Source of the DNA: Oxalicibacterium flavum
GTDB lineage: Bacteria; Pseudomonadota; Gammaproteobacteria; Burkholderiales; Burkholderiaceae_D
Length of the DNA stretch: 64,000 bases
Reading direction: 5' to 3'
Assembly (NCBI RefSeq): GCF_014635065.1
Contig: NZ_BMCG01000004.1
Location: 310,001-374,000 of the forward strand
The notes below the pieces were generated by a model. The model saw only the letters and a list, made by a program, of their open reading frames with translations. It had not been told where the DNA came from and did not search any database. Below, piece after piece: positions 52,291 through 64,000 of this stretch (its first letter is position 1; each line of letters begins with the position of its first letter). A program made the translations under genes and the position numbers.

Positions 52291-52396
52291 ATTTGGTGCA
52301 ATCGTTCGTTGCAAAGCCCGCATGCACGGCGCGGCATTCTGTGTGAGGATGGCCGAATCCGTCCGGTGCGGTTGTTGCGCCGGTATCCGACGACTA

Positions 52397-52420
52397 GCAT
52401 GCCTGTCCCGTCAGGCATGC
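52397..52420 (+). promoter_or_regulatory. Perfect hairpin at the start of the nucleotide-exchange transporter gene
   Basis: GCATGCCTG (52397-52405) and CAGGCATGC (52412-52420) form a perfect 9-bp stem around TCCCGT, followed by ATGTTTTG. Two in-frame ATG codons (52399, 52417) are buried in the stem, and the preferred start (52435) is 14 nt after it, so it could modulate translation or act as a weak attenuator. Confidence 0.45.
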
Positions 52421-52434
52421 ATGTTTTGCGAAGG

Positions 52435-53763
52435 ATGGGCTTGAACGATTCCGGCATCCAGACGAGCAAGCGCACTGCCTGGTGGCAGGCATACATCACG
52501 CGCCTGCTCGATGTGCGGCCGGGCGAGGGTAGGCTGCTGGCGTGGGGCGGACTGTGCATCTTCAGCCTGATGACGGCGTATTACGTACTGCGGCCGGTGC
52601 GCGACATGCTGGGCGTGGCCGGCGGTGTCGAGAACCTGCCGTGGCTGTTCACCGGCACGCTGCTGGCGATGCTGGCGGTCACGCCGGCGTATGCCGCGCT
52701 GGTGCGGGCGCTGCCGCGGCGGCGCTTCATTCCGCTGGTCTATCTGTTCTTCATTTCCAACCTGGTGCTGTTTGCGTTCCTGTTCGCGCTGGCGTCCGCG
52801 CCGCAGCAGGTCTGGATCGGCCGTGGTTTCTTCATCTGGCTGTCGGTCTTCAACCTGTTCGTGGTCTCGGTGTTCTGGGCGCTGATGGCCGATCTGTTCG
52901 AACCGGTGCGGGCCAAGCGCCTGTTTGGCGGGCTGGCAGCCGCGGCCAGCGTCGGTGCGATTGCCGGTTCTGGCGTGACCGCGACCATGGCGCGCGCCTT
53001 GCCTCTGCCGGCGCTGATGCTGTGCGCGGCCCTGCTGCTGGCGCTGGCGATCCTGTGCGTGGCGCGCACGCTGGCAGCGGCCGGCGCGCTGCATGGCCGG
53101 TCCGCGCAGGCGGCGCGGGATGCGGAGGAACAGGCGATCGGCGGCGGCATCCTGGCCGGCATCACGCACACGTTGCGCTCGCCCTATCTGGCGAACATCT
53201 GCTTCTACATGCTCGCCTATTCGATCACCTCGACGTTCCTCTACTTCCAGCAGGCGACGATCGCGCGCGATGCGTTTGCCGACAATGCCGAACGCACGGC
53301 CTTCTTTGCCGCCGTCGATCTGACGGTCAATACGCTGACGCTGCTGGTGCAGCTGTTCCTGACCGGCCGCCTGCTGCGCGTGTTCGGCGTGACGGTGGCG
53401 GCCGCTTTTCTGCCGGCGCTGACCTTGCTCGGATTCGGCGTCTTCGCGGCGTTTCCGGTCCTGGCGGTGCTGGTGGCATTCCAGGTGTTGCGGCGCGTCG
53501 GCAACTTCGGCCTGTCGCGGCCGACGCGCGAATTGCTGTTCACGGTGCTGCCGCGCGAGGACAAGTACAAGGCCAAGAACGTCATCGATACCGTCGTCTA
53601 TCGTTTGGGCGATCAGCTCGGCAGCTGGTCGTATGCGCTGCTGGGCGCGCTCGGTTTCGGCATGGTCGGCGTGTCGCTGATCGCGCTGCCGCTGGCGTTC
53701 GCGTGGATGCTCAACGGCGTGTGGCTGGGACGCAGGCAGCAGGCGATGCAGATGCGGCGATGA
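52435..53763 (+). CDS. NTP/NDP-exchange (Tlc/Npt)-type MFS transporter
   Basis: A 442-aa protein with about twelve helices resembling bacterial ATP/ADP-translocase-like MFS members. The opening block RPGEGRLLAWGGLCIFSLMTAYYVLRPVRDMLG (about 24-56) and the C-terminal RPTRELLFTVLPREDKYKAKN are the family hallmarks. In free-living bacteria the substrate is uncertain. The start is ambiguous: ATG codons at 52399 and 52417 lie inside a hairpin, and 52435 has AAGG immediately adjacent rather than well spaced. Confidence 0.75.
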   Translation: MGLNDSGIQTSKRTAWWQAYITRLLDVRPGEGRLLAWGGLCIFSLMTAYYVLRPVRDMLGVAGGVENLPWLFTGTLLAMLAVTPAYAALVRALPRRRFIPLVYLFFISNLVLFAFLFALASAPQQVWIGRGFFIWLSVFNLFVVSVFWALMADLFEPVRAKRLFGGLAAAASVGAIAGSGVTATMARALPLPALMLCAALLLALAILCVARTLAAAGALHGRSAQAARDAEEQAIGGGILAGITHTLRSPYLANICFYMLAYSITSTFLYFQQATIARDAFADNAERTAFFAAVDLTVNTLTLLVQLFLTGRLLRVFGVTVAAAFLPALTLLGFGVFAAFPVLAVLVAFQVLRRVGNFGLSRPTRELLFTVLPREDKYKAKNVIDTVVYRLGDQLGSWSYALLGALGFGMVGVSLIALPLAFAWMLNGVWLGRRQQAMQMRR

Positions 53764-53793: not shown

Positions 53794-53827
53794 TACTCAC
53801 CTTGCCGGCCTGACTCTATAATGAGTC
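53794..53827 (+). promoter_or_regulatory. Promoter and overlapping palindrome of the gntR gene
   Basis: A perfect TATAAT (53817-53822) lies 17 bp after a weak TACTCA, and is embedded in the inverted repeat GACTC-TATAAT-GAGTC (53812-53827). A repressor bound there would block the -10, suggesting autoregulation. Because the -10 overlaps an ATG at 53821, that codon is unlikely to be the protein start. Confidence 0.5.
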
Positions 53828-53859
53828 GCATCCCCGCGTGCTTCAATCCGAAAATCATC

Positions 53860-54588
53860 ATGCCGCTGCCACCGTCTTCCACCGTCCCGCTGTATGCCCA
53901 GATCAAGGAGGCATTGCGGGCCAAGATCATCGATGGCACTTATGTCGCCCATCAGAAACTGCCTTCCGAGAGCGAGATGATCAATGCCTTCGGCGTCAGC
54001 CGCATCACGGTGCGCCAGGCCATGAACGATCTGCAGAAGGAAGGTTTTCTGTTCAAGGTGCATGGCAAGGGGACCTTCGTCGCCCGGCCCAGCGTGTCGC
54101 AGGAACTCACGCATCTGCAGGGCTTTGGCGAGGCCGTGCGCTATCTGGGGCACGAGACGTTTTCGGAAGTCCTGGGTTTGCGCACGATGGCGGGCAGCGC
54201 GCTGGTGTGCGGCAAGCTCGGCCTGCGCGAGGGTGACACGGTGACCGAAATCCGCCGCCTGCGCTACCTGGATCGGGAGCCGATCTCCATCGATCACTCA
54301 TGGGTGCGGCACGATATCGGTTCGCGTCTGACCGAAAAGAACCTGCGCGACAAGGATCTGTTCTCATTGCTGGAAAACGAACTGGGGCAGCGCCTGCATT
54401 CGGCCGATGTGGAGATCGATGCGACCGCTGCCGACGAGGAAATTGGCCGTCGCCTGAAAGTCCAGGCCGGCTCGCCCATCCTGCGCATCGAACGGCTGAC
54501 CTATGCCAGCGAGGATCGTCCGCTGGTATTCGAGTACATCCATTACCGCGCCGAGAGCTTCAAGTACAAGCTGAAGGTGCTGCGCTGA
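53860..54588 (+). CDS. GntR-family (HutC/UTRA) transcriptional regulator
   Basis: A 242-aa regulator. The N-terminal winged helix-turn-helix has the GntR signature (PLYAQIKEALRAKIIDG, LPSESEMINAFGVSRITVRQAM), and the C-terminal UTRA ligand-binding domain (about 85-240) has the FGE, RLRYLDREPISIDHSWV and ERLTYASEDRPLVFEY patterns of the HutC subfamily. The start at 53860 (MPLPPSSTVPLYAQ) is preferred over ATG 53821, which lies in the -10 box. It is immediately upstream of, and codirectional with, the AprA-like operon, and is likely its ligand-responsive repressor. Confidence 0.88.
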   Translation: MPLPPSSTVPLYAQIKEALRAKIIDGTYVAHQKLPSESEMINAFGVSRITVRQAMNDLQKEGFLFKVHGKGTFVARPSVSQELTHLQGFGEAVRYLGHETFSEVLGLRTMAGSALVCGKLGLREGDTVTEIRRLRYLDREPISIDHSWVRHDIGSRLTEKNLRDKDLFSLLENELGQRLHSADVEIDATAADEEIGRRLKVQAGSPILRIERLTYASEDRPLVFEYIHYRAESFKYKLKVLR

Positions 54589-54594
54589 TAAAAA

Positions 54595-54609
54595 TGAGAA
54601 TCATCCTCA
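54595..54609. promoter_or_regulatory. Fur-box-like inverted repeat
   Basis: TGAGAAT-C-ATCCTCA is a 7-1-7 inverted repeat with one mismatch between arms and three mismatches to the TGATAAT-N-ATTATCA Fur consensus. It lies just after the gntR stop codon. Iron control would suit an operon encoding several Fe-S proteins. Confidence 0.4.
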
Positions 54610-54785
54610 ATTTAGGAAAGATGCGTGACGTTGGCATCATCTTGCGCGATTTTGGATCGTTCGGTCTCACTGAATCGGGTCCCTTTTCTGGTCGCGATCC
54701 CCACAATGATCCATTCCTTTCCCTCTCCATCCGCAGTTCTCCCGCATATGGCCCGTAAACCGGGCCGCCAAGCCTGAAAATCCGC

Positions 54786-54801
54786 TGGCATACGTTTTGC
54801 T
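54786..54801 (+). promoter_or_regulatory. Predicted sigma-54 promoter of the AprA-like operon
   Basis: TGGCATACGTTTTGCT, preceded by C, fits the sigma-54 consensus (TGGCAYR-N4-TTGCW), with GG at 54787-54788 and GC at 54799-54800 at the strict 12-bp spacing. Transcription would begin near 54812, about 134 nt before the AprA-like ATG. Confidence 0.6.
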
Positions 54802-54810
54802 CAACTGGTT

Positions 54811-54828
54811 ATGACGAGTCATGACGAG
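54811..54828. promoter_or_regulatory. Repeat cluster at the predicted transcription start
   Basis: Two direct copies of ATGACGAG (54811-54818, 54821-54828) also create the palindromes ATGAC-GA-GTCAT and GTCATGAC. The shared GAGTC core recurs in the palindrome over the gntR -10 (53812-53827), so both may be GntR operators. Confidence 0.4.
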
Positions 54829-54945
54829 ATTGTGCGGACGTTGTGATTCGACACGAATATTTCATCGCTGACCGTTTGCTCGTCTTTGTTGTGGCGAGGC
54901 AATGCAGGACAGCGTGGCGTCGCATCACTCACTGGAAAGGCAGAT

Positions 54946-56676
54946 ATGAACACCATCGAACTGGAATACGACCTGGTGATCGTCGGGGGCGGAACCGGCG
55001 GCCCCATGGCGGCCGTCAAGGCCAAGGAAAAGAATCCAAAGCTGCGCGTGCTGGTGCTGGAAAAGGCCAACGTCAAGCGCAGCGGCGCCATCTCCATGGG
55101 CATGGACGGCCTGAACAATGCGGTGATCCCCGGCCATGCGACGCCCGAGCAATATACGAAGGAAATCACGGTCGCCAATGACGGCATCGTTGACCAGAAG
55201 GGCGTGTTTGCATACGCCAGCAACAGCTTCGCGATGATCGAGGAGCTCGACCGCTGGGGGGTGAAGTTCGAGAAGGACGAGACCGGCGACTATGCCGTGC
55301 GCAAGGTGCACCATCTGGGCAGCTATGTGTTGCCGATGCCGGAAGGACACCATATGAAAAAGGTCCTTTATCGCCAGCTGAAGCGCCAGCGTGTGGAGAT
55401 CACCAACCGCGTGGTGGCCACGCGCCTGATCACCGGCAGCAACGGCGAGATCGCCGGCGTCATGGGCTTCGATTGCCGTACCGCGGATTTCTACGTGATC
55501 AAGGCCAAGTCGGTGGTGCTGTGCACGGGCGCGGCCGGTCGTCTCGGCCTGCCGGCATCGGGCTACATGTTCGGCACCTACGAGAACCCGACCAATACCG
55601 GTGACGGCCATGCGATGGCCTTCCACGCCGGCGCCGAACTGACGAACCTCGAGTGCTTCCAGGTCAATCCGCTGATCAAGGACTACAACGGTCCCGCCTG
55701 TGCCTACGTGACCGGCCCGTTTGGCGGCTTCACGGCCAACTCGCAGGGCGCGCGTTTCATCGAATGCGATTACTGGAGCGGCCAGATGATGCTCGAGTTC
55801 TACAACGAGCTCGAAGGCGGCCGTGGTCCCGTTTTCCTCAAGCTCGATCACCTGGCCGAGGAAACGATTGCCGAGATCGAGCACATCCTGCACACCAACG
55901 AGCGGCCGAGCCGCGGCCGCTTCCACGAACGGCGCGGCAACGATTATCGCCAGAAGGCGATCGAGATGCACATCTCGGAGATCGGCTTTTGCAGCGGCCA
56001 CAGCGCATCCGGCATCTGGACCAACGAAAAGGGCGAGTGCTCGATTCCCGGCCTGTATGCGGCAGGTGACTGCGCGAGCATCCCGCACAACTACATGCTG
56101 GGCGCCTTCGTCTATGGCAAGTTCTGCGGCGAGAACGCGGCCGACTACGTGTCGGGCATGAGCGAGCCGGTCATCAACACCGACATGGTGGAAGCCGAGC
56201 GCAAGCGCATCATGGCGCCGCTGTCGCGCAGCGAGGGACTGACGCCGTTCCAGGTCGAGTACAAGACCCGCCGCATCGTCAACGACTATCTGCAGCCGCC
56301 CAAGATCACGCGCAAGATGGAAATCGCCCTCGAGCGCTTCGGCGAAATCCGCGAAGACCTCAACGACATGGTCGCCGAGAACCCGCACGAACTCATGCGC
56401 GCGATGGAAGCCCACACCATCCGCGACTGCGCCGAACTGGCCGCGCGCTCCTCGCTGTTCCGCAAGGAAAGCCGCTGGGGCCTCTATCACCTGTGTGTCG
56501 ATCATCCGGAAAAGGATGACGAAAACTGGTTCTGCCATACCAACGTCAAGAGCGACGGCAACGGCAGGATGGCGTTCCGCAAGCGCGAGATCGAACCCTA
56601 CATCGTCGAACTCAACGACGACGAGAAGGCCGCCTATCAACGTCTGCGTGTCGCCGGCGGCAAGCAGGCCAACTAA
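54946..56676 (+). CDS. AprA-like FAD flavoprotein (fumarate reductase/adenylylsulfate reductase superfamily)
   Basis: A 576-aa soluble flavoprotein. The Rossmann FAD motif is VIVGGGTGGPMAAVKA (residues about 10-25); further blocks are SGAISMGMDGLNNA, TGDGHAMAFHAGAEL, CFQVNPLIKDYNGPACAYV, GARFIECDYWSGQMM and GLYAAGDCASIPHNYMLGAF. The pattern is nearer to AprA, the alpha subunit of dissimilatory APS reductase, than to FrdA/SdhA. It is slightly shorter than typical AprA, and no sat, dsr or hdr genes are nearby. No signal peptide. Start at 54946 follows GGAAAGG. The next gene is an AprB-like ferredoxin 15 bp away. The true substrate is unknown. Confidence 0.85.
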   Translation: MNTIELEYDLVIVGGGTGGPMAAVKAKEKNPKLRVLVLEKANVKRSGAISMGMDGLNNAVIPGHATPEQYTKEITVANDGIVDQKGVFAYASNSFAMIEELDRWGVKFEKDETGDYAVRKVHHLGSYVLPMPEGHHMKKVLYRQLKRQRVEITNRVVATRLITGSNGEIAGVMGFDCRTADFYVIKAKSVVLCTGAAGRLGLPASGYMFGTYENPTNTGDGHAMAFHAGAELTNLECFQVNPLIKDYNGPACAYVTGPFGGFTANSQGARFIECDYWSGQMMLEFYNELEGGRGPVFLKLDHLAEETIAEIEHILHTNERPSRGRFHERRGNDYRQKAIEMHISEIGFCSGHSASGIWTNEKGECSIPGLYAAGDCASIPHNYMLGAFVYGKFCGENAADYVSGMSEPVINTDMVEAERKRIMAPLSRSEGLTPFQVEYKTRRIVNDYLQPPKITRKMEIALERFGEIREDLNDMVAENPHELMRAMEAHTIRDCAELAARSSLFRKESRWGLYHLCVDHPEKDDENWFCHTNVKSDGNGRMAFRKREIEPYIVELNDDEKAAYQRLRVAGGKQAN

Positions 56677-56691
56677 AGGAAGGAAATCATC

Positions 56692-56925
56692 ATGACCATT
56701 GCAACGACGAGAACACAGGCGCCGGTCGTCGTCGACCAATCCAAATGCATCGCGGAGAAGGGCTGCACCGTCTGCGTCGATGTGTGCCCGCTGGACGTGC
56801 TGGCGATCGACATGGTGTCGAACAAGGCCTTCATGAAGTTCGACGAATGCTGGTACTGCATGCCGTGCGAACAGGACTGCCCGACCGGTGCGGTGCAGGT
56901 CAACATCCCTTATCTGCTGCGCTAG
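56692..56925 (+). CDS. AprB-like 2[4Fe-4S] ferredoxin
   Basis: A 77-aa dicluster ferredoxin with cysteine patterns CIAEKGCTVCVDVCP and CWYCMPCEQDCP. The connecting block KAFMKFDECWYCMPC and PTGAV resemble the ferredoxin half of AprB; the C-terminal tail that wraps AprA in dissimilatory APS reductases is missing, so the protein is about half the AprB length. It is 15 bp after the flavoprotein gene and is probably its electron-transfer subunit. Confidence 0.88.
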   Translation: MTIATTRTQAPVVVDQSKCIAEKGCTVCVDVCPLDVLAIDMVSNKAFMKFDECWYCMPCEQDCPTGAVQVNIPYLLR

Positions 56926-56934
56926 GAGCCGGCC

Positions 56935-57882
56935 ATGATCGCCATGAGCATTCACGACAGACTCAAGAGCCCGGACGCGGCGGTACGCCGCATCGCCGTG
57001 ATCGATCTTCCCTATACCGAGGAGGAAGACGACATCGTGCCGTTGATGATCGCGGCCTTGTCCGATCCTGACGCCGCCGTGCGACTGGAAGCGGCAAAGG
57101 CCATCGAAGGATACGAAGAACCCGAAGTGCTGGAAGCGCTGGTGCCCCTGCTGAAGGACAGCGACGAGGAAGTGCGCAGGGCCGCCGCGCTGACGCTGGC
57201 AGAGCTGAAGGAAGCCGCATCGGCGTCGTATCTGCTGCCGTATCTGGGCGACAGCGATTCCCAGGTGAAGATCCATGCGCTGCATGCGATCAAGGCGCTG
57301 CGCTCGGAAGCCGCGTTCGAGCCTGCGATGGCGGCTATCGGCGATGCGCATGCCGGCGTGCGCCGGGAGGCGATCGGCGTCCTCGGCTATCTGAAGAAGC
57401 CGGAGGCAATCGGCGTACTGACCAATGCGGCGGCCAACGATGCCGATCCCGAGGTACGCCGCATCGCCATCGGCGCGCTCGGCTATTCCTCCGAAGTCAG
57501 CATCCAGCCGACCTTGAGCCGCGTGCTGTCCGATCCGGTCTGGCAAGTACGCGAAGAGGCTGCCACCACCATCGGCAAGCTCGGTCTGTCGCGCGGCATT
57601 CCCGATCTGGTCAAGGTGATGGACGACGAATTCTGGCAGGTGCGGGTCAAGGCGGCACGCAGCCTGGGCAAGCTGAAGGCCAGGCCCGCGGTGCCGGCCT
57701 TGTGCGATGCACTGGTGCATCCGATCAGCAATCTGCGCAAGGAGGCGGTGATTGCGCTCGGCGAGATCGGCGACGAACGCGCGATGCCGCATCTCGAGCA
57801 TGCGCTGACCGACGCCGATTCCGACGTGCGCAAGCTGTCCAAGCTTGCCATGGCGAGCATCCGCCTGAATGGAGGTGCGTGA
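56935..57882 (+). CDS. HEAT-repeat (PBS-lyase-like) protein
   Basis: A 315-aa all-helical protein of about ten HEAT-like repeats of about 31 residues (for example [76 protein letters not shown]). It has no signal peptide or catalytic motif. Such repeats form scaffolds or act in cofactor insertion (as in CpcE-type lyases). Placed between two ferredoxin genes and overlapping the second by 1 nt, it may assemble or hold the redox complex. Two ATG codons (56935, 56944) could start it. Confidence 0.85.
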
Positions 57883-58211
57883 TGACACACGTCGTTGGCG
57901 AAGCCTGCATCGGCTGCAAATACACGGACTGCGTGGCCCTGTGCCCGGTGGAATGCTTTCACGAAGGACCGAACTTCCTGGTGATCAACCCCGATGTCTG
58001 CATCGACTGCGGCGTTTGTGTGGCGGAGTGCCCGGTGGAGGCGATCTTTGACGAAAAGGATCTGCCGGAGGCGCAGCGCGAATACGTGGAATTGAACCTG
58101 CGGCTGGCGCAAAGCTGGCCGCTGATCACCGGTTCCAAGGAGCCCATGCCGGAAGCCGACGCATGGGCGGAAAAGAGCAGCAAGCGGGAGTATCTGGTGG
58201 AGATGGTTTGA
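57882..58211 (+). CDS. fdxA: FdxA-type seven-iron ferredoxin
   Basis: A 109-aa [3Fe-4S][4Fe-4S] ferredoxin of the Azotobacter FdI type. The signature is [21 protein letters not shown] followed by [17 protein letters not shown] (listed as two motifs), then the long C-terminal helix region [12 protein letters not shown]. Start overlaps the HEAT gene stop by 1 nt (TGATG); GGAGG precedes it. In Azotobacter this ferredoxin pairs with the NADPH reductase FPR, and an FPR-like gene lies at 61921 in this same operon. Confidence 0.92.
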
Positions 58212-58243
58212 AAGCGCCGCTTAGTGCGTCTGTAGTTCTCTCG

Positions 58244-58272
58244 TTGATTCAACGTGGCTCATTGTGCATAAA
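58244..58272 (+). promoter_or_regulatory. Possible internal promoter before the ABC genes
   Basis: TTGATT (58244-58249) and CATAAA (58267-58272) are spaced by 17 bp in the 76-bp gap before the binding-protein gene; each matches four of six consensus positions. It could give extra importer expression. Confidence 0.3.
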
Positions 58273-58287
58273 CAGGAAGGATTGAAC

Positions 58288-59757
58288 ATGACTATCTCGC
58301 TTTCATCACCCGCTCTTTCATCCCCGCGATCCGTCGGGCGTCTGCGCGCCGCGGCGGCTGGTATTGCCCTGCTGTCGGCCGCGCTGCTGTGCGCAGGCGT
58401 TGCGCAGGCGAGGGAGACCGTGACCATCGGTATCGGTACGCAGAACACGACCACCAACACCGTCACCGGCGGCATCGTCATCAAGGAACTGAAGCTGCTC
58501 GAGAAGTACCTGCCGAAGACCGGCAAGTATGCCGACATCGATTTTCGGCTGGACTGGCAGAATGCGACCTCCGGGCCGCCGATCACGAACGGCATGATCG
58601 CCAACAAGATCCAGATCGGCATGATGGGCGACTATCCGCTGCTGGTGAACGGCGCTACCGGTCAGCAGAACAAGGGCAACGAGACCGAGCTGGTGGCGGT
58701 GATTGCCTATAACGCCTTCGGTGCCGGCAACGGCGTGGTGGTGCACAAGGACAGTCCCTACTACCAGCTGTCGGACCTGAAGGGCACCACGGTCTCGGTG
58801 CCGTTCGGTTCGGCGGCGCACGGCATGCTGCTGCAGGCGATGCAGGCGCGCGGCTGGAACGATGGTTACTGGAATCTGGTCAGCCAGAGTCCCGAGGTGG
58901 GTACCACCAACCTGCAGGAAAAGAAGATCGATGCGCATGCGGATTTTGTGCCGTTCGCCGAGCTGCTGCCGTACCGCGGCTTTGCCCGCAAGATCTTCGA
59001 CGGCGCCGAAACCAAGATCCCGACCTTTCACGGCATCGTGATGCGCAAGGACTTTTCGGCTAGGTATCCGGAAGTCGCGGTGGCCTACATCAAGGCCATG
59101 ATGGAAGCCGACGACTGGGTGCGCAAGAATCCCAAGCTGGCGGCCGAAAAAATCCAGGAATGGACCAAGATCGAGAAGGAGGTCGCCTACATCTTCCTTG
59201 GCCCCGGCGGCATCCATACGCTGGACCCTTCGATCAAGCCGATGCTGGTTGACTCGGTTCGCACGGCCTACGGCGTGTTGAAGAAAATGAATCGCGTCAA
59301 GGAGTTCGATGTCGATGGCTGGGTCAACGAAACCTACGTGCGGCAGGCCTTCAAGGAGCGCGGGCAGGACTACGACGCGCAAAAGCAGACGCTGGCCAAC
59401 TATGACATCGGCGGCATCGACCCGGTGTGCAAGAAGCCCATCACGCGGCCGCGCGAAGCCGGCGAAATCTGGATCGAGGGCGGCGACATCGTTGCACTGA
59501 GCTCGACGGCGTGCACCTTCATGGGCATCAGGAAGTACGAGAGCGAAGGCAAGAAAATTGCGGTGTCGTATGTGTTCGACAAGGCGCTGGGCATCAAGGT
59601 CTTTGCCGACAAGGCGTTCTATTCGGTTGCAGGGACCGATCCGGCCAAGCTCGAGATCGTGCCCTTCCTGCTGAAGAAGGATGCCGAAGCGTATGCGGGC
59701 AAGGCTGGCGCGGTCGTTGCTACCTATACGGACGTACTGGCGAAAATGGGGAAATGA
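58288..59757 (+). CDS. ABC substrate-binding protein (NrtA/TauA type) with C-terminal NosL-like domain
   Basis: A 489-aa exported protein. Residues 1-43 form a signal peptide (cleavage near AQA/RE). Residues about 45-370 are a type-II periplasmic binding protein of the nitrate/sulfonate family (TNGMIANKIQIGMMGDYPLLV; GTTVSVPFGSAAHGMLL; KKIDAHADFVPFAELLP). Residues about 375-489 resemble NosL: DPVCKKPI with Cys381 in place of CGM, STACTFMG, FDKALGIKVFADKAFY and a terminal block KDAEAYAGKAGAVVATYTDV. The normal length without this tail is about 320-340 aa. The fusion suggests a copper- or thiol-related function at the receptor. GGAAGG precedes the ATG. Confidence 0.8.
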   Translation: MTISLSSPALSSPRSVGRLRAAAAGIALLSAALLCAGVAQARETVTIGIGTQNTTTNTVTGGIVIKELKLLEKYLPKTGKYADIDFRLDWQNATSGPPITNGMIANKIQIGMMGDYPLLVNGATGQQNKGNETELVAVIAYNAFGAGNGVVVHKDSPYYQLSDLKGTTVSVPFGSAAHGMLLQAMQARGWNDGYWNLVSQSPEVGTTNLQEKKIDAHADFVPFAELLPYRGFARKIFDGAETKIPTFHGIVMRKDFSARYPEVAVAYIKAMMEADDWVRKNPKLAAEKIQEWTKIEKEVAYIFLGPGGIHTLDPSIKPMLVDSVRTAYGVLKKMNRVKEFDVDGWVNETYVRQAFKERGQDYDAQKQTLANYDIGGIDPVCKKPITRPREAGEIWIEGGDIVALSSTACTFMGIRKYESEGKKIAVSYVFDKALGIKVFADKAFYSVAGTDPAKLEIVPFLLKKDAEAYAGKAGAVVATYTDVLAKMGK

Positions 59758-59759
59758 TC

Positions 59760-60695
59760 ATGGCTCTGACTGACCGACACGCAATCGACCCGCCCATGAA
59801 TCCGGCGGCGGCTCCCGTCCACACCGCGACCCAGCGGCCCGCATTGTCCGCGATCCAGGGCGGCAAATCGGCGGCAGCCGAGACGCCACGCCCGTTCAGT
59901 TTCGGCGACTGGCTTGATACCACGCTGGCCCGCATCGTCCTGGGGAGCATCTCGATCGGCGGCGTGCTGCTGGCGTGGTACCTGGCGACGCGGTATCAGC
60001 TCGACTTCTATGTGCGATTCGGCAATATCCCGACGCCGATGGACGTGCTGGACAAGATGCGTGAGGTCAATCAGTCCACCCGCTTCCTGACCAACGTCGG
60101 CATCAGCCTGCGGCGGGTGCTGATGGGATTTGCGATCGCCGGCGTGCTTGGCATCGGGCTCGGCATCCTGATCGGACGCTACCGCCTGTTCCGTTCGCTG
60201 ACCATGCCGGCGCTCGAGATCTTCCGTCCGATCCCGGCGATCGCATGGGTGCCGATGGCGATCATGCTGTGGCCGAGCAACGAGGTCAGCATCGTCTTCA
60301 TCACCTTCCTCGGCGCCTTCTTCCCGATCCTGATCAACACCATCCATGGCGTGGAGGAGATCGACGAGGTGCTGTTTCGCGCGGCGCGCAGTCTGGGCAC
60401 GCGGGAAATCGACCTGATCCTGTATGTGGTCGTCCCCGGCGCGCTGCAGCACATCTTCACCGGCCTGTCGGTCGGCATGGGCGTGGCATGGGTTTCACTG
60501 ATCGCGGCCGAGATGATCTCGGGACAGTTCGGCATCGGCTACTTCACATGGGAAGCCTATTCGCTGATCTCGTATGCGGAAATCGCGCTCGGCATGATCA
60601 CGATCGGCATTCTGGGTCTGCTGTGCAGCAAGGCGATCCAACTCACATCCAGACTGGCCATGCCGTGGATGGCGGCGGCGGGAGGCAAGAAATGA
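59760..60695 (+). CDS. ABC transporter permease (NrtB/SsuC/TauC family)
   Basis: A 311-aa inner-membrane permease with a long hydrophilic N-terminus (about 55 residues) and six helices; the EAA coupling loop is visible as EIDEVLFRAARSLGTREIDLILYVVVPGA (residues about 200-228). It belongs to the nitrate/sulfonate/taurine permease family and pairs with the binding protein just upstream. The ATG at 59760 has GGGG 8 nt upstream; ATG 59754 overlaps the preceding stop but has poor spacing. Confidence 0.9.
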   Translation: MALTDRHAIDPPMNPAAAPVHTATQRPALSAIQGGKSAAAETPRPFSFGDWLDTTLARIVLGSISIGGVLLAWYLATRYQLDFYVRFGNIPTPMDVLDKMREVNQSTRFLTNVGISLRRVLMGFAIAGVLGIGLGILIGRYRLFRSLTMPALEIFRPIPAIAWVPMAIMLWPSNEVSIVFITFLGAFFPILINTIHGVEEIDEVLFRAARSLGTREIDLILYVVVPGALQHIFTGLSVGMGVAWVSLIAAEMISGQFGIGYFTWEAYSLISYAEIALGMITIGILGLLCSKAIQLTSRLAMPWMAAAGGKK

Positions 60696-61549
60696 GCGCA
60701 TTGTCAGGACATATCGAGGTACGCGATCTCAACATCAGCTTCAAGGCCAGGAGCGGCACGGTCCAAGCGGTCAAGTCGGTTTCCATCGACGTGCAGCCAG
60801 GCGAATTCGTCTCGCTGATCGGCCCTTCCGGATGCGGCAAATCGACGCTGATGAACGCGGTCGCCGGCTTCACGCGCTTCAACAGCGGCACGCTGACGCT
60901 GGACGGCAAGACCATAGTCGGACCGGGTGCCGATCGCGGCGTGGTGTTCCAGCAGTACTCGCTGTTCCCGTGGATGACGGTGCGCAGGAACGTCGAGTTC
61001 GGCCTCAAGATGCAGGGCGTGGCGCAGAGCGAGCGGACCTCGCAGGCGCGCACGCTGCTGGGACTGGCCGGGCTGCTGGCGTTCGAGGACCACTATCCGT
61101 CGCAGCTGTCGGGTGGCATGAAGCAGCGCGTGGGCATCGTGCGCGCGCTGGCGACAAGCCCGCAGGTGCTGCTGATGGACGAACCGTTCGGCGCGCTCGA
61201 TTCGCAGACGCGTTCCGTCATGCAGGAAATCCTGACCAACATGTGGCAGCGCCTGCGCCTTTCGGTGCTGTTCATCACGCACGACATCGAGGAGGCGATC
61301 TTCCTGTCCGACCGCATCTATGTGATGACGGCGAGGCCGGGCCGCGTCAAGGCCGAGATCGTGGTGCCGCTGCCGCGTCCGCGCAAGCCGGAGATGATGG
61401 ACACGCCGGAATTCACGGCACTGATCCGCCAGATCAAGCGGCTGATCCGCGAGGAAAGTCTGGCGGCGATGGGCGGCGAATTGTCGCAGGGCGGCTGCGA
61501 AGGGCTGAGCATGGAGATCGGGCCGGAAGGAGTGCGCCATGTCCTCTAG
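60692..61549 (+). CDS. ABC transporter ATP-binding protein (NrtD/SsuB/TauB family)
   Basis: A 285-aa ATPase: Walker A GPSGCGKSTL, Q-loop QQYSLFPW, signature LSGGMKQRVGIVRAL, Walker B VLLMDEPFGALD, switch His in ITHDIEEAI. It completes the importer with the two preceding genes, overlapping the permease by 4 nt and the DUF971 gene by 11 nt. Confidence 0.93.
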   Translation: MSALSGHIEVRDLNISFKARSGTVQAVKSVSIDVQPGEFVSLIGPSGCGKSTLMNAVAGFTRFNSGTLTLDGKTIVGPGADRGVVFQQYSLFPWMTVRRNVEFGLKMQGVAQSERTSQARTLLGLAGLLAFEDHYPSQLSGGMKQRVGIVRALATSPQVLLMDEPFGALDSQTRSVMQEILTNMWQRLRLSVLFITHDIEEAIFLSDRIYVMTARPGRVKAEIVVPLPRPRKPEMMDTPEFTALIRQIKRLIREESLAAMGGELSQGGCEGLSMEIGPEGVRHVL

Positions 61550-61928
61550 CGCGGTGTGCGACGAGACCGATGTGCAGGAAGTGCCGTATCCCTACGCGCT
61601 CGAACTCGACCCCAGGGCGTGCCGGCTGGAAATGAAGTGGCCGGACCTGCAGGCCGCGGTGCCGTACAAGGTGCTGCGCCAGTCCTGCCGCTGCAGCGTC
61701 TGCGAAAGCGTGCGCCGCGCGCTCGACGACGTGCCGCCGGTGGATGCCGGCGTGACATTGCTGAAGATCGAATTGCTGGGATCGATGGGCGTGCAGCTGT
61801 TCTTCTCGGACGGCCACGAGCGCGGCATCTATCCGTGGACCTACCTGCGCCGCATTGCCGACGGCCGTGCCGCCGAAGGCGTTGATGACTTCCCGCAGGC
61901 ATTGATGAAAGGGTGGAAAGATGAGTAA
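61539..61928 (+). CDS. DUF971 (GBBH N-terminal-like) protein
   Basis: A 129-aa protein of the DUF971 family, related to the N-terminal domain of gamma-butyrobetaine hydroxylase. The cysteine motif CRCSVCES (about residue 50) suggests a metal site; the C-terminal GIYPWTYLRRI is typical. Its start lies inside the ATPase gene (11-nt overlap) and its end overlaps FNR by 8 nt, so it is tightly coupled. Stand-alone DUF971 proteins often neighbour Fe-S genes, but no enzymatic role is established. Confidence 0.85.
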   Translation: MSSSAVCDETDVQEVPYPYALELDPRACRLEMKWPDLQAAVPYKVLRQSCRCSVCESVRRALDDVPPVDAGVTLLKIELLGSMGVQLFFSDGHERGIYPWTYLRRIADGRAAEGVDDFPQALMKGWKDE

Positions 61929-62694
61929 TTTTTACCAGGCCGAAGTGCTGTCCGTCCATCACTGGACCGATCGCCTGTTTTCCTTCACGACCACGCGCGA
62001 GGCCAGCTTCCGCTACCAGAGCGGACAGTTCGCGATGATCGGACTCGAGGTTGACGGCAAGCCGCTGATGCGCGCCTACAGCATGGTCAGCCCGCATTAC
62101 GAAGAGACGCTGGAATTCCTCAGCATCAAGGTGCCGGACGGCCCGCTGACCTCGCGCCTGCAGAATATTCGCGTCGGCGATTCCATCCTGGTGGGGCGCA
62201 AGGCGTCCGGCACGCTGCTGACGCAGAACCTGCTGCCGGGCCGGCATCTCTACCTGCTCGGCACCGGCACGGGCCTCGCGCCGTTCATGAGCATCGTGCA
62301 CGATCCCGAAGTCTATGAACTCTACGAGAAGGTGATCCTGGTGCATGGCTGCCGGCAGGTGAGCGAACTCGCCTACCAACAGCGCATCGCGAAGGAACTG
62401 TTCGAGCATGAGTTCCTCGGCGAACTCGCGGCCGGTCGCTTGCTGTACTACCCGACCGTCACGCGCGAACCGTTCGAGAACCAGGGGCGCATTCCCGACC
62501 TGCTGCAAAGCGACCATTTCTTCGCCAGGCTGGGGCTGCCCGCCTTCTGCAAGGCAGACGACCGTTTCATGCTCTGCGGCAGCCCGGCCATGCTGAAGGA
62601 CACGGTGGCCGTGCTCGAATCGAGGGGACTCACGGAAGGCAACATGAGTCACCAGGGACATTACGTGATCGAGCGCGCGTTCGTCGAGAAGTAG
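61921..62694 (+). CDS. fpr: Ferredoxin-NADP reductase (bacterial FPR type)
   Basis: A 257-aa FAD enzyme. The FAD-binding motif RAYSMVSP and the block LEFLSIKVPDGPLTSRLQ are characteristic of subclass I FPRs of Azotobacter type; the NADP domain shows LLGTGTGLAPFMS and FMLCGSPAML, and the C-terminus is FVEK. It transfers electrons between NADPH and ferredoxin or flavodoxin. The pairing with a seven-iron ferredoxin in the same operon gives a complete NADPH-to-Fe-S route to the AprA-like flavoprotein. Confidence 0.94.
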   Translation: MSNFYQAEVLSVHHWTDRLFSFTTTREASFRYQSGQFAMIGLEVDGKPLMRAYSMVSPHYEETLEFLSIKVPDGPLTSRLQNIRVGDSILVGRKASGTLLTQNLLPGRHLYLLGTGTGLAPFMSIVHDPEVYELYEKVILVHGCRQVSELAYQQRIAKELFEHEFLGELAAGRLLYYPTVTREPFENQGRIPDLLQSDHFFARLGLPAFCKADDRFMLCGSPAMLKDTVAVLESRGLTEGNMSHQGHYVIERAFVEK

Positions 62695-62742
62695 CAGTCA
62701 TCCGCGGGCGGCTTCCGGTCGCCCATTCCATTGAAATGTTCA

Positions 62743-62781
62743 GACAGGTGCGTGCCGCATCGGGGCCGGTGCACGCCTGTC
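62743..62781 (+). promoter_or_regulatory. Hairpin in the leader of the YeiH-family gene
   Basis: GACAG (62743-62747) plus GCGTGC (62750-62755) pair with GCACGC (62771-62776) plus CTGTC (62777-62781), an 11-bp stem with a 2-nt bulge and 15-nt loop, in the 112-bp gap after the reductase gene. Without a T tract it is more likely a regulatory structure or operator than a terminator. Confidence 0.4.
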
Positions 62782-62806
62782 GAACCGCAAACGTGACGAG
62801 CATGGC

Positions 62807-63859
62807 GTGAAAGAAAAGAGTCTTCCATCGTGGACGTGGCAGCAACGGTCGCTGGCCCTGCTGTCGGTCTGGCGGCCGGCGGCCTTGCGCAGCAACTGGC
62901 GCGGCGTGACGATCTGCAGCGTGATCGCGCTGGCGGCAACCTTCGTCTCCACTACCTACGGCGGCCCGCAATTGCTCTATGCCCTGTTCTTCGGGCTGGC
63001 CTTTCATTTTCTCTCGCAGGATGCGCTGTGCCTGCCGGGCATCCAGTTCTGCAGTCAGACATTGCTGCGCACCGGCGTGGCGCTGCTGGGCGCGCGCATC
63101 ACCTTCGATCAGATCGCGCACATCGGCGTGCTGCCGCTGCTGCTGGTGCTGCTGGCGGTGGTTTCCACCATCGCCTGCGGCGGCCTCGTCGCCCACGTGC
63201 TCGGCAGGCCGCGCAGCGAAGGCCTGCTGTCGGGCGGTGCGGTAGCGATCTGCGGCGCGTCGGCGGCGCTGGCGATCTCGGCGGTTCTGCCGCGCACGCG
63301 CGAGAACGAGCAGTTCACGCTGCTGACGGTGGTCGGCGTCACGGCGCTGTCCACGGCGGCGATGATCGTCTATCCGTTGCTGGTGCACGTGCTCGCGCTC
63401 GGCCATACGGCGGCTGGCATCTTCCTCGGCGGCACGATTCATGACGTGGCGCAGGTGGTCGGCGCCGGTTATCTGATCTCGCCGCACACGGGAGAGATCG
63501 CCGCCATCGTCAAGCTCACGCGCGTCGCCATGCTGGTGCCGGTGGTGATCGCGGTCTCGCTGCTGTTTCGCACCCGGATGCAGGCCGAGGCCACGCGCAT
63601 GCCGCTGGTGCCGGTGTTTCTGGTGGGCTTCGCGCTGATGATGCTGGCCAACAGCCTGCACCTGATTCCGCCGGCGGTGGACGAGGGACTCAACGCGCTG
63701 TCGCGCGCCTGCCTGGTGCTGGCGATCGCCGCGCTTGGCGTCAAGACTTCGTTCCAGGCGCTGGCCTCGCTCGGATGGAAGCCGGTACTGATGCTGGTCA
63801 GCGAGACGGTATGGATCGCGGCGCTGGTCCTGCTCGCGTTGGCATGGATGGGATGGTGA
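62807..63859 (+). CDS. YeiH/UPF0324-family membrane protein, putative sulfate exporter family
   Basis: A 350-aa membrane protein with about ten helices: conserved [36 protein letters not shown] and [21 protein letters not shown] segments mark the YeiH family, sometimes annotated as putative sulfate exporters although the activity is unproven. The GTG at 62807 is the only plausible start (a nearby ATG at 62802 is followed by a stop). It continues the AprA-like operon direction and could export a sulfur product. Confidence 0.85.
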
Positions 63860-63879
63860 ATGGAACAAGGAGAACGAGC

Positions 63880-64000
63880 ATGAAGATTCTGGTGGCGGTC
63901 AAACGGGTCGTCGATGCCAACGTCAAGGTGCGCGTGCGTGCCGACGGCACCGGCGTCGATACGGCGAACGTCAAGATGGCGATCAATCCCTTCGACGAGA
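63880..64000 (+). CDS. etfB: Electron transfer flavoprotein beta subunit (5' end only)
   Basis: The first 40 codons of an EtfB protein ([19 protein letters not shown] ... AINPFDE), cut by the window end. EtfAB accept electrons from acyl-CoA or other dehydrogenases and pass them to ETF-quinone oxidoreductase. An AAGGAG site precedes the ATG; it starts 20 bp after the YeiH-family gene, so it may be the next gene of the same operon or the start of an etfBA housekeeping unit. Confidence 0.88.

Follow-up and report, generated by a model that had tools for sequence, protein, structure and literature searches.

A conserved AprBA-like redox operon of Oxalicibacterium flavum, a candidate for the reductive release of sulfite

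The final part of a 64,000-nucleotide stretch of the Oxalicibacterium flavum genome (NCBI RefSeq assembly GCF_014635065.1, contig NZ_BMCG01000004.1, positions 310,001 to 374,000 of the forward strand; hereafter the window, with positions counted from its first letter) encodes a relative of AprA, the flavoprotein subunit of adenosine 5'-phosphosulfate (APS) reductase, together with an AprB-like ferredoxin, a HEAT-repeat protein, an ATP-binding cassette (ABC) importer, a YeiH-family transporter and a GntR/UTRA regulator. This operon is real and conserved: the gene set is found across many genera, in two main layouts, and is present in Proteobacteria, Cyanobacteria and Actinobacteria. From the sequences we rate the gene set as a variant of the AprBA kind, with a proposed mechanism that is testable. 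Because an AprA relative is combined with an importer of the sulfonate type in many carriers, and with sulfite exporters in some, the operon suggests a still uncharacterised route that strips sulfite from a sulfur compound.

The flavoprotein and its redox partners

The flavoprotein (54946..56676, + strand), with FAD_binding_2 and Succ_DH_flav_C domains, passes the NCBIfam model PRK08275 (NF006131) with 1058.5 bits against a cut-off of 587 and scores 292 bits, below the cut-off, on PRK06854. It fails both the aprA model TIGR02061 (165.8 bits, cut-off 641.75) and the succinate dehydrogenase/fumarate reductase (SDH/FRD) model TIGR01812 (171 bits, cut-off 567). Its nearest solved relatives by sequence are the alpha subunit of the 3'-phosphoadenosine 5'-phosphosulfate (PAPS) reductase of M. 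thermolithotrophicus (MtPAPSR, PDB 8a8o; 7.9e-63) and A. fulgidus AprA, and a fold search with the predicted model, which is of moderate quality (mean predicted local distance difference test score, pLDDT, 70), also ranks these two on top. In a tree of 44 rows, including 26 rows of the family, with a midpoint root only and very long branches between the groups, the PRK08275-type family falls to one side of a moderately supported branch (88/91), AprA and MtPAPSR share a separate branch (100/100), and SdhA/FrdA together with six rows of about 30% identity form a third (100/100). Next to the clades of AprA/PAPS reductase and SdhA/FrdA, the flavoprotein thus makes up a separate, third one; its position outside the SdhA/FrdA clade agrees with a preliminary description of this DNA.

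The column of the catalytic Arg265 of AprA, which holds Arg in 9/9 AprA rows and in MtPAPSR, is Leu243 in all 26 family rows, and one active-site His column of SdhA/FrdA (position 241) is Asn in the flavoprotein; because of these two changes the protein is probably neither an AprA/PAPS reductase nor an SdhA/FrdA enzyme. With Leu at the catalytic position, strict AprBA chemistry does not follow from the sequence. Seven residues (His122, Tyr127, Arg320, Arg323, His327, Arg330 and Arg335) occur in every one of the 26 family rows and in no other row. The pocket is thus unlike either known kind. Lys245-Asp246 correspond to Lys267-Asp268 of AprA, His381 to His446 and Asn57 to Asn74, and His352 stands in the column taken as that of AprA His398; the Asn and His of the last two columns contact the sulfate group of APS in AprA (PMC2211403). 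Other AprA contacts are replaced (Trp234 by Tyr212, Gly274 by Cys252, Leu278 by Thr or Ala). We infer that the pocket accommodates a sulfo group.

The adjacent gene (56692..56925, +) encodes a 77-residue ferredoxin with motifs for two [4Fe-4S] clusters, whose eight Cys and Trp54, the Trp of the CWxC motif, are kept in 92/92 loci. By its sequence, this protein has two features of AprB, the pair of [4Fe-4S] motifs and the electron-transfer Trp, and it fails the AprB model TIGR02060 (36.6 bits, cut-off 135.65); its matches include two polyferredoxins (1e-12 and 1e-11), D. gigas AprB (6e-10) and the beta subunit of MtPAPSR (6e-5). The HEAT-repeat protein (56935..57882, +; Pfam HEAT_2 1.3e-66) is fused to the flavoprotein in Tsukamurella, in a protein of 893 residues that scores 1568 on the fusion model NF010374 (cut-off 1196), which suggests that the two are physical partners.

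Further redox genes follow. An FdxA-type ferredoxin (57882..58211, +) passes NF045490 with 153 bits against a cut-off of 135, and an FPR-type NAD(P)H/ferredoxin reductase (61921..62694, +; Pfam FAD_binding_6 and NAD_binding_1) reaches 148 bits on NF008178, below the cut-off of 390. A GltD-like reductase of about 1190 residues is present at 10/92 loci, none of which has FPR (L083:17226-20789, L016:10574-14035 and eight others, where L numbers designate loci; it is related to PRK06567, below the cut-off). With FPR in some loci and the GltD-like reductase in FPR-less ones, genes for NAD(P)H supply recur without being universal. Between the importer and FPR lies a DUF971 protein (61539..61928, +; PF06155, GBBH-like_N, 3.7e-16) with a CxCxxC motif, whose three Cys show a conservation of 0.97-0.99 across 67 loci.

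Conservation, transport and regulation of the operon

The compact same-strand operon of the preliminary description is confirmed by the list of open reading frames and by Pfam and NCBIfam profiles: 11 genes on the + strand, at 53821-63859, with the upstream regulator included. Neighbouring genes overlap by 1-11 bp or are separated by 9-112 bp; the one longer gap, of 357 bp, lies between the GntR stop codon and the ATG of the flavoprotein. A simple scan of the locus found no terminator-like site between operon genes and two sites within FdxA and YeiH against a chance expectation of 6.5; promoter and terminator scanning is uninformative here. A transporter-like gene on the same strand, recognised by eye (52309-53763), ends 57 bp upstream of the GntR gene and is not among the conserved neighbours seen.

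Conservation was assessed by BLAST, with the window proteins as queries, in 86 loci chosen by the flavoprotein, namely, the best 80 of at least 594 contig relatives, all with proteobacterial or betaproteobacterial-type titles, and six plasmid regions. The ferredoxin recurs at 86/86 of these loci, the HEAT protein at 85, the GntR/UTRA regulator at 83, the importer ATPase, binding protein and permease at 74, 70 and 68, respectively, and the DUF971 protein at 66; the ABC counts are inflated by weak paralogues, and at 1e-20 the binding protein is present at 71/92 loci. FdxA (26/86), FPR (13/86) and YeiH (8/86) are less frequent. The AprBA-like redox unit that had been proposed, together with NAD(P)H-type supply genes, a sulfonate-type importer, a sulfur exporter and its own regulator, recurs as a set in which FdxA, FPR and YeiH are optional.

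The flavoprotein is present in 13/145 genomes of the host family. Among 398 Pseudomonadota genomes, 31 have matches at 1e-40, 21 of these with at least 63% identity; the remaining ten are about 30% identical, and the six of them included in the tree group with SdhA/FrdA. Plasmids yield 83 matching records; among the matches listed, 52 are 60-80% identical, Cyanobacteria reach 62% and two Actinobacteria 55-57%, and much of the rest is SdhA-like. The genome of Telluria antibiotica encodes the system a second time (L232:847-5074), in a more distant form that has an operator to itself. NtaA/DmoA-type flavin mononucleotide monooxygenases flank 7/92 loci (L014, L018, L081, L082, L086, L106 and L107).

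The importer consists of an NMT1/SsuA-like binding protein (58288..59757, +), a permease (59754..60695, +) and an ATPase (60692..61549, +), the latter two of the nitrate/sulfonate/taurine type. The predicted model of the binding protein (pLDDT 80) has an SsuA/TauA-like fold with an extra C-terminal stretch; its best eight fold matches are all TauA or SsuA, at 17-21% identity, followed by lower-ranked binders of nitrate, bicarbonate and thiamin precursor. On the SsuA model it scores 104 bits (cut-off 163.5). Kinship to the SaoA/P/X transporter models was rejected on scores below the cut-off, and so was a NosL-like metal-binding role of the C-terminal stretch, for which there is a weak Pfam match in one cyanobacterial copy only and the cysteines are not conserved. 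Locus L088, which has no dedicated importer, carries downstream a binding protein above the SsuA family cut-off, with relatives at L086, L095 and L097. Two cyanobacterial loci (L128:9676-11676 and L129:8388-10424) encode a LysR regulator that is similar in its C-terminal part to the binding protein of the system, judging by a weak match to Pfam NMT1_2 and by BLAST alignments with binding proteins from many loci; this regulator is a possible sensor for the ligand of the binding protein.

The YeiH-family transporter (62807..63859, +) matches PF03601 with 216.5 bits (cut-off 24.5), is the sole such match in the host genome, and fails the narrower TIGR00698 (130 bits, cut-off 232.6). YeiH has been linked to sulfite resistance in Salmonella and is taken as a sulfite exporter in Hyphomicrobium (PMC12880088, PMC12423496). 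A profile hidden Markov model (HMM) search finds it at 9/80 loci (1,618,433 bases in total), in every case encoded on the strand of the operon. Given 44 copies in 120 genomes of the host order, an estimated 0.1 per Mb for genomes of about 3.5 Mb, some 0.2 would be expected at 80 loci versus the 9 found, these loci being non-independent. The copies at the loci are 46-51% and 30-33% identical to YeiH of the window and are placed behind or before the operon, and on two cyanobacterial plasmids YeiH and a TauE-family gene adjoin the core; these divergent identities, the two positions and the plasmids argue for repeated recruitment of YeiH to the operon.

The regulator (53821..54588, +) is a GntR/UTRA protein of the HutC type (Pfam UTRA 4.8e-34, GntR 6.9e-21). 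A candidate operator, TTATGACGAGTCATGA, was recognised by footprinting pattern at 54809..54824 (no strand assigned), about 120 bp upstream of the flavoprotein start. The 3.2 Mb host genome contains the 16-mer TYATRACNNGTYATRA at exactly two places: window position 54809, preceding the flavoprotein, and contig position C4:375653, immediately preceding the TauE-family gene that lies beyond the window end. The top two palindromes upstream of GntR are present at 25/84 and 12/84 loci, the related loci being non-independent, versus at most 3 in mononucleotide shuffles. A first survey, of 24 genomes selected for carrying the flavoprotein, yielded 19 sites of the operator pattern versus 2 for a reversed control, with 11 genomes lacking a site. 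By coordinates, 11 of the 19 belong to the flavoprotein operon, 4 precede a TauE-family gene of the host-genus type, 1 lies at another GntR gene, and 3 are found where amidase genes accompany a second, SsuA-like importer of the ABC type, two of the 3 between this importer and another TauE-family gene. In 50 further genomes the contrast is weaker (13 sites versus 5), with 7 sites at the flavoprotein operon, 1 at the second Telluria copy, 2 beside a different GntR gene and 3 in other places; the matches near integrase-like genes (L230, L231) and at L233 may be due to chance. A different GntR/UTRA regulator, with about 35% identity, is accompanied by a matching palindrome at L212, L228 and L229, which may mark a related regulon.

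The binding protein of this second, co-regulated importer comes closest to SsuA models, below their cut-offs, and the amidase is allophanate-hydrolase-like, with 536 bits on a subfamily model (cut-off 487) and 494 on an equivalog model, below its cut-off of 511; in Herbaspirillum (L126), the amidase-importer block adjoins the system itself. If the enzyme is the reductive desulfonase considered below, the operator common to this SsuA-like importer and the amidases in Oxalobacteraceae would hint that its natural substrate is sulfamate or an amide-linked sulfo compound.

Proposed mechanism and its alternatives

The reading that we favor, tentatively, is the NADPH-driven cleavage of an X-SO3 substrate followed by export of sulfite, for which we infer the substrate class, the direction of electron flow, the product and the roles of the HEAT and DUF971 proteins. 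Under the control of the GntR/UTRA regulator, the SsuA/TauA-type ABC system would import a sulfonate-like anion, and a cytoplasmic AprBA-like enzyme, consisting of the flavin adenine dinucleotide (FAD) subunit, the two-[4Fe-4S] ferredoxin and the HEAT protein as a bound partner, would split off the sulfo group as sulfite. In the simplest chain, two electrons from NADPH would reach FAD via FPR, FdxA and the AprB-like ferredoxin, and the chemistry would resemble that of AprA, with FAD N5 taking the SO3 group and a different pocket for the leaving group. Surplus sulfite would be exported by YeiH and TauE-family permeases, and the DUF971 protein (Mrp in cyanobacteria) may aid Fe-S assembly. The more ambitious proposal, that the PRK08275 flavoprotein with the HEAT protein and the ferredoxin constitutes a class of NADPH-driven, oxygen-independent reductive desulfonases cleaving a C-S or N-S bond, we regard as doubtful.

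Several observations weigh against cleavage of an X-SO3 substrate. Besides the family-wide replacement of the catalytic Arg, the retained sulfate-contacting residues are not diagnostic, Asn57 being Asn also in the six SDH-like rows and His352 being His in every row, and Gln239, Arg270, His302, His515 and His531 of the flavoprotein are also found in E. coli SdhA and FrdA, not in AprA. The dedicated importer is dispensable: among 17 genomes with importer-less loci, 16 have no relative of the binding protein at 1e-40 and one has a relative elsewhere (the positive controls match in 3/3 genomes). Thus, the core is the enzyme with the HEAT protein, usually accompanied by DUF971 and the regulator, and dedicated import is optional; together with the optional status of FdxA, FPR and YeiH, this speaks against the full self-containment of the pathway that the preliminary description had envisaged. 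YeiH was not found by the HMM search at 71/80 loci, some of which end at contig ends, and TauE-family genes are common (six in the host genome), being present at 7/80 loci, about twice their density. Finally, a second pair of electron-transfer flavoprotein (ETF) genes and, in one relative, an ETF-quinone oxidoreductase (ETF-QO) also fit electron outflow from the enzyme.

These ETF genes bear on an oxidative alternative, in which the flavoprotein dehydrogenates an imported sulfonate, electrons pass from the ferredoxin through ETF/ETF-QO to quinone, and sulfite is eliminated later and exported. Directly 3' of YeiH, the host has etfB (its start at 63881..64000, +, cut by the window end) and, outside the window, etfA and a TauE-family permease (PF01925, 120 bits, cut-off 32.6); another etfBA pair resides elsewhere in the genome, and therefore that of the operon is additional. 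A congeneric genome (L181) has the order YeiH-etfB-etfA-TauE as well, followed by a gene recognised by eye as TetR-like and by ETF-QO, and EtfB relatives are present at L048, L049, L054, L105 and L181; the columns shared with SdhA/FrdA fit the same direction. However, EtfB is present at 4/92 loci, fewer than the commoner FdxA, FPR and GltD-like reductase, and the SdhA/FrdA His is Asn, so that we consider the oxidative direction rather unlikely. No ETF type could be assigned, every NCBIfam match being below its cut-off. At L182:3517-5030 (G115), just a 47-residue etfA match separates YeiH from the TauE-family gene, a pattern that resembles loss of the ETF genes.

A substrate without a sulfo group, such as an anion rich in amide groups or nitrogen, with the sulfur exporters incidental or serving another step, would be compatible with the shared fold of nitrate, bicarbonate and thiamin-precursor binding proteins and with the amidase genes that share the operator or the neighbourhood in four Oxalobacteraceae-type genomes; it is at odds with the binding protein's closest eight fold matches, all of them sulfonate-binding, with the co-regulated second binding protein being nearest to SsuA, and with the linkage to YeiH, and appears slightly more unlikely still. 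The enzyme might instead consume sulfite, joining it to an acceptor as a means of detoxification, given the exporters nearby and the presumed reversal of AprBA in sulfur oxidisers (PMC2211403). This direction, which we deem quite improbable, leaves the sulfonate-type importer unexplained, and the available text on the homologous PAPS reductase reports no measurable reverse reaction (PMC10322725). As for an ordinary APS/PAPS or fumarate reductase in a mixed neighbourhood, the database names and the similarity of fold speak for it; the fumarate/succinate, APS and PAPS reductase identities are disfavoured by the family models, the separate clade and the changed columns, and the host itself carries two PF01507 (CysH/CysD-type) genes, which makes this explanation very hard to sustain. 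A search of the whole host genome found no aprA at 1e-100, aprA being the only dissimilatory gene covered genome-wide (sat, dsr, hdr and qmo were outside this search).

Relationship to known systems and implications

MtPAPSR (PMC10322725) is the best match in both sequence and fold, shares the Asn and His columns and, as here, has a short ferredoxin subunit (104 residues). Nevertheless, identity in the fold alignment is 26%, the MtPAPSR Arg is replaced by Leu243, His122 and Tyr127 are found here only, and the region of the PAPS-binding loop (Lys120, Arg121, Ser122) holds an insertion and is aligned with uncertainty; the operon lacks sulfate-activation genes and includes an importer, the HEAT protein and an exporter. 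With AprBA, the system shares the pairing of a FAD subunit with a ferredoxin bearing two cluster motifs, the equivalents of Lys-Asp and His446, and the Trp of CWxC, but it fails the aprA and aprB models, has replacements at Arg265, Trp234, Gly274 and Leu278, and employs a 77-residue ferredoxin without segments 2 and 3 of AprB.

Sulfonate uptake by SsuABC and TauABC works with the oxygenases SsuD and TauD. The binding-protein fold, the importer class and sulfite as the presumed product are common to these systems and the one described here, whereas the conserved gene set contains no oxygenase and centers on a ferredoxin-linked flavoprotein that is possibly independent of O2.

According to a 2025 paper, the cargo modules of Acidithiobacillus caldus plasmids include ferredoxin/APS reductase/GntR and a sulfonate ABC transporter, with a predicted role in organosulfonate uptake and assimilation (PMC12375680); plasmid pTcM1 (L016) carries the gene set. 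In its available text, that account gives the cargo label and the predicted role, without analysis of the active site, the regulon or the distribution (PMC12375680). In the literature searched, with subscription journals mostly outside its coverage, we recognised no experimental study of the gene set.

The results do not support the NCBI family name, fumarate reductase/succinate dehydrogenase subunit. Aerobic release of sulfur from sulfonates mostly proceeds via oxygenases, and, to our knowledge, enzymes of reductive desulfonation are largely unknown. If the proposed mechanism holds true, the AprBA-like unit, which often comes with a sulfonate-type importer and which some Proteobacteria and Cyanobacteria combine with sulfite exporters, would be a concrete candidate for reductive desulfonation, and the candidate operator would offer a direct route to the inducer.

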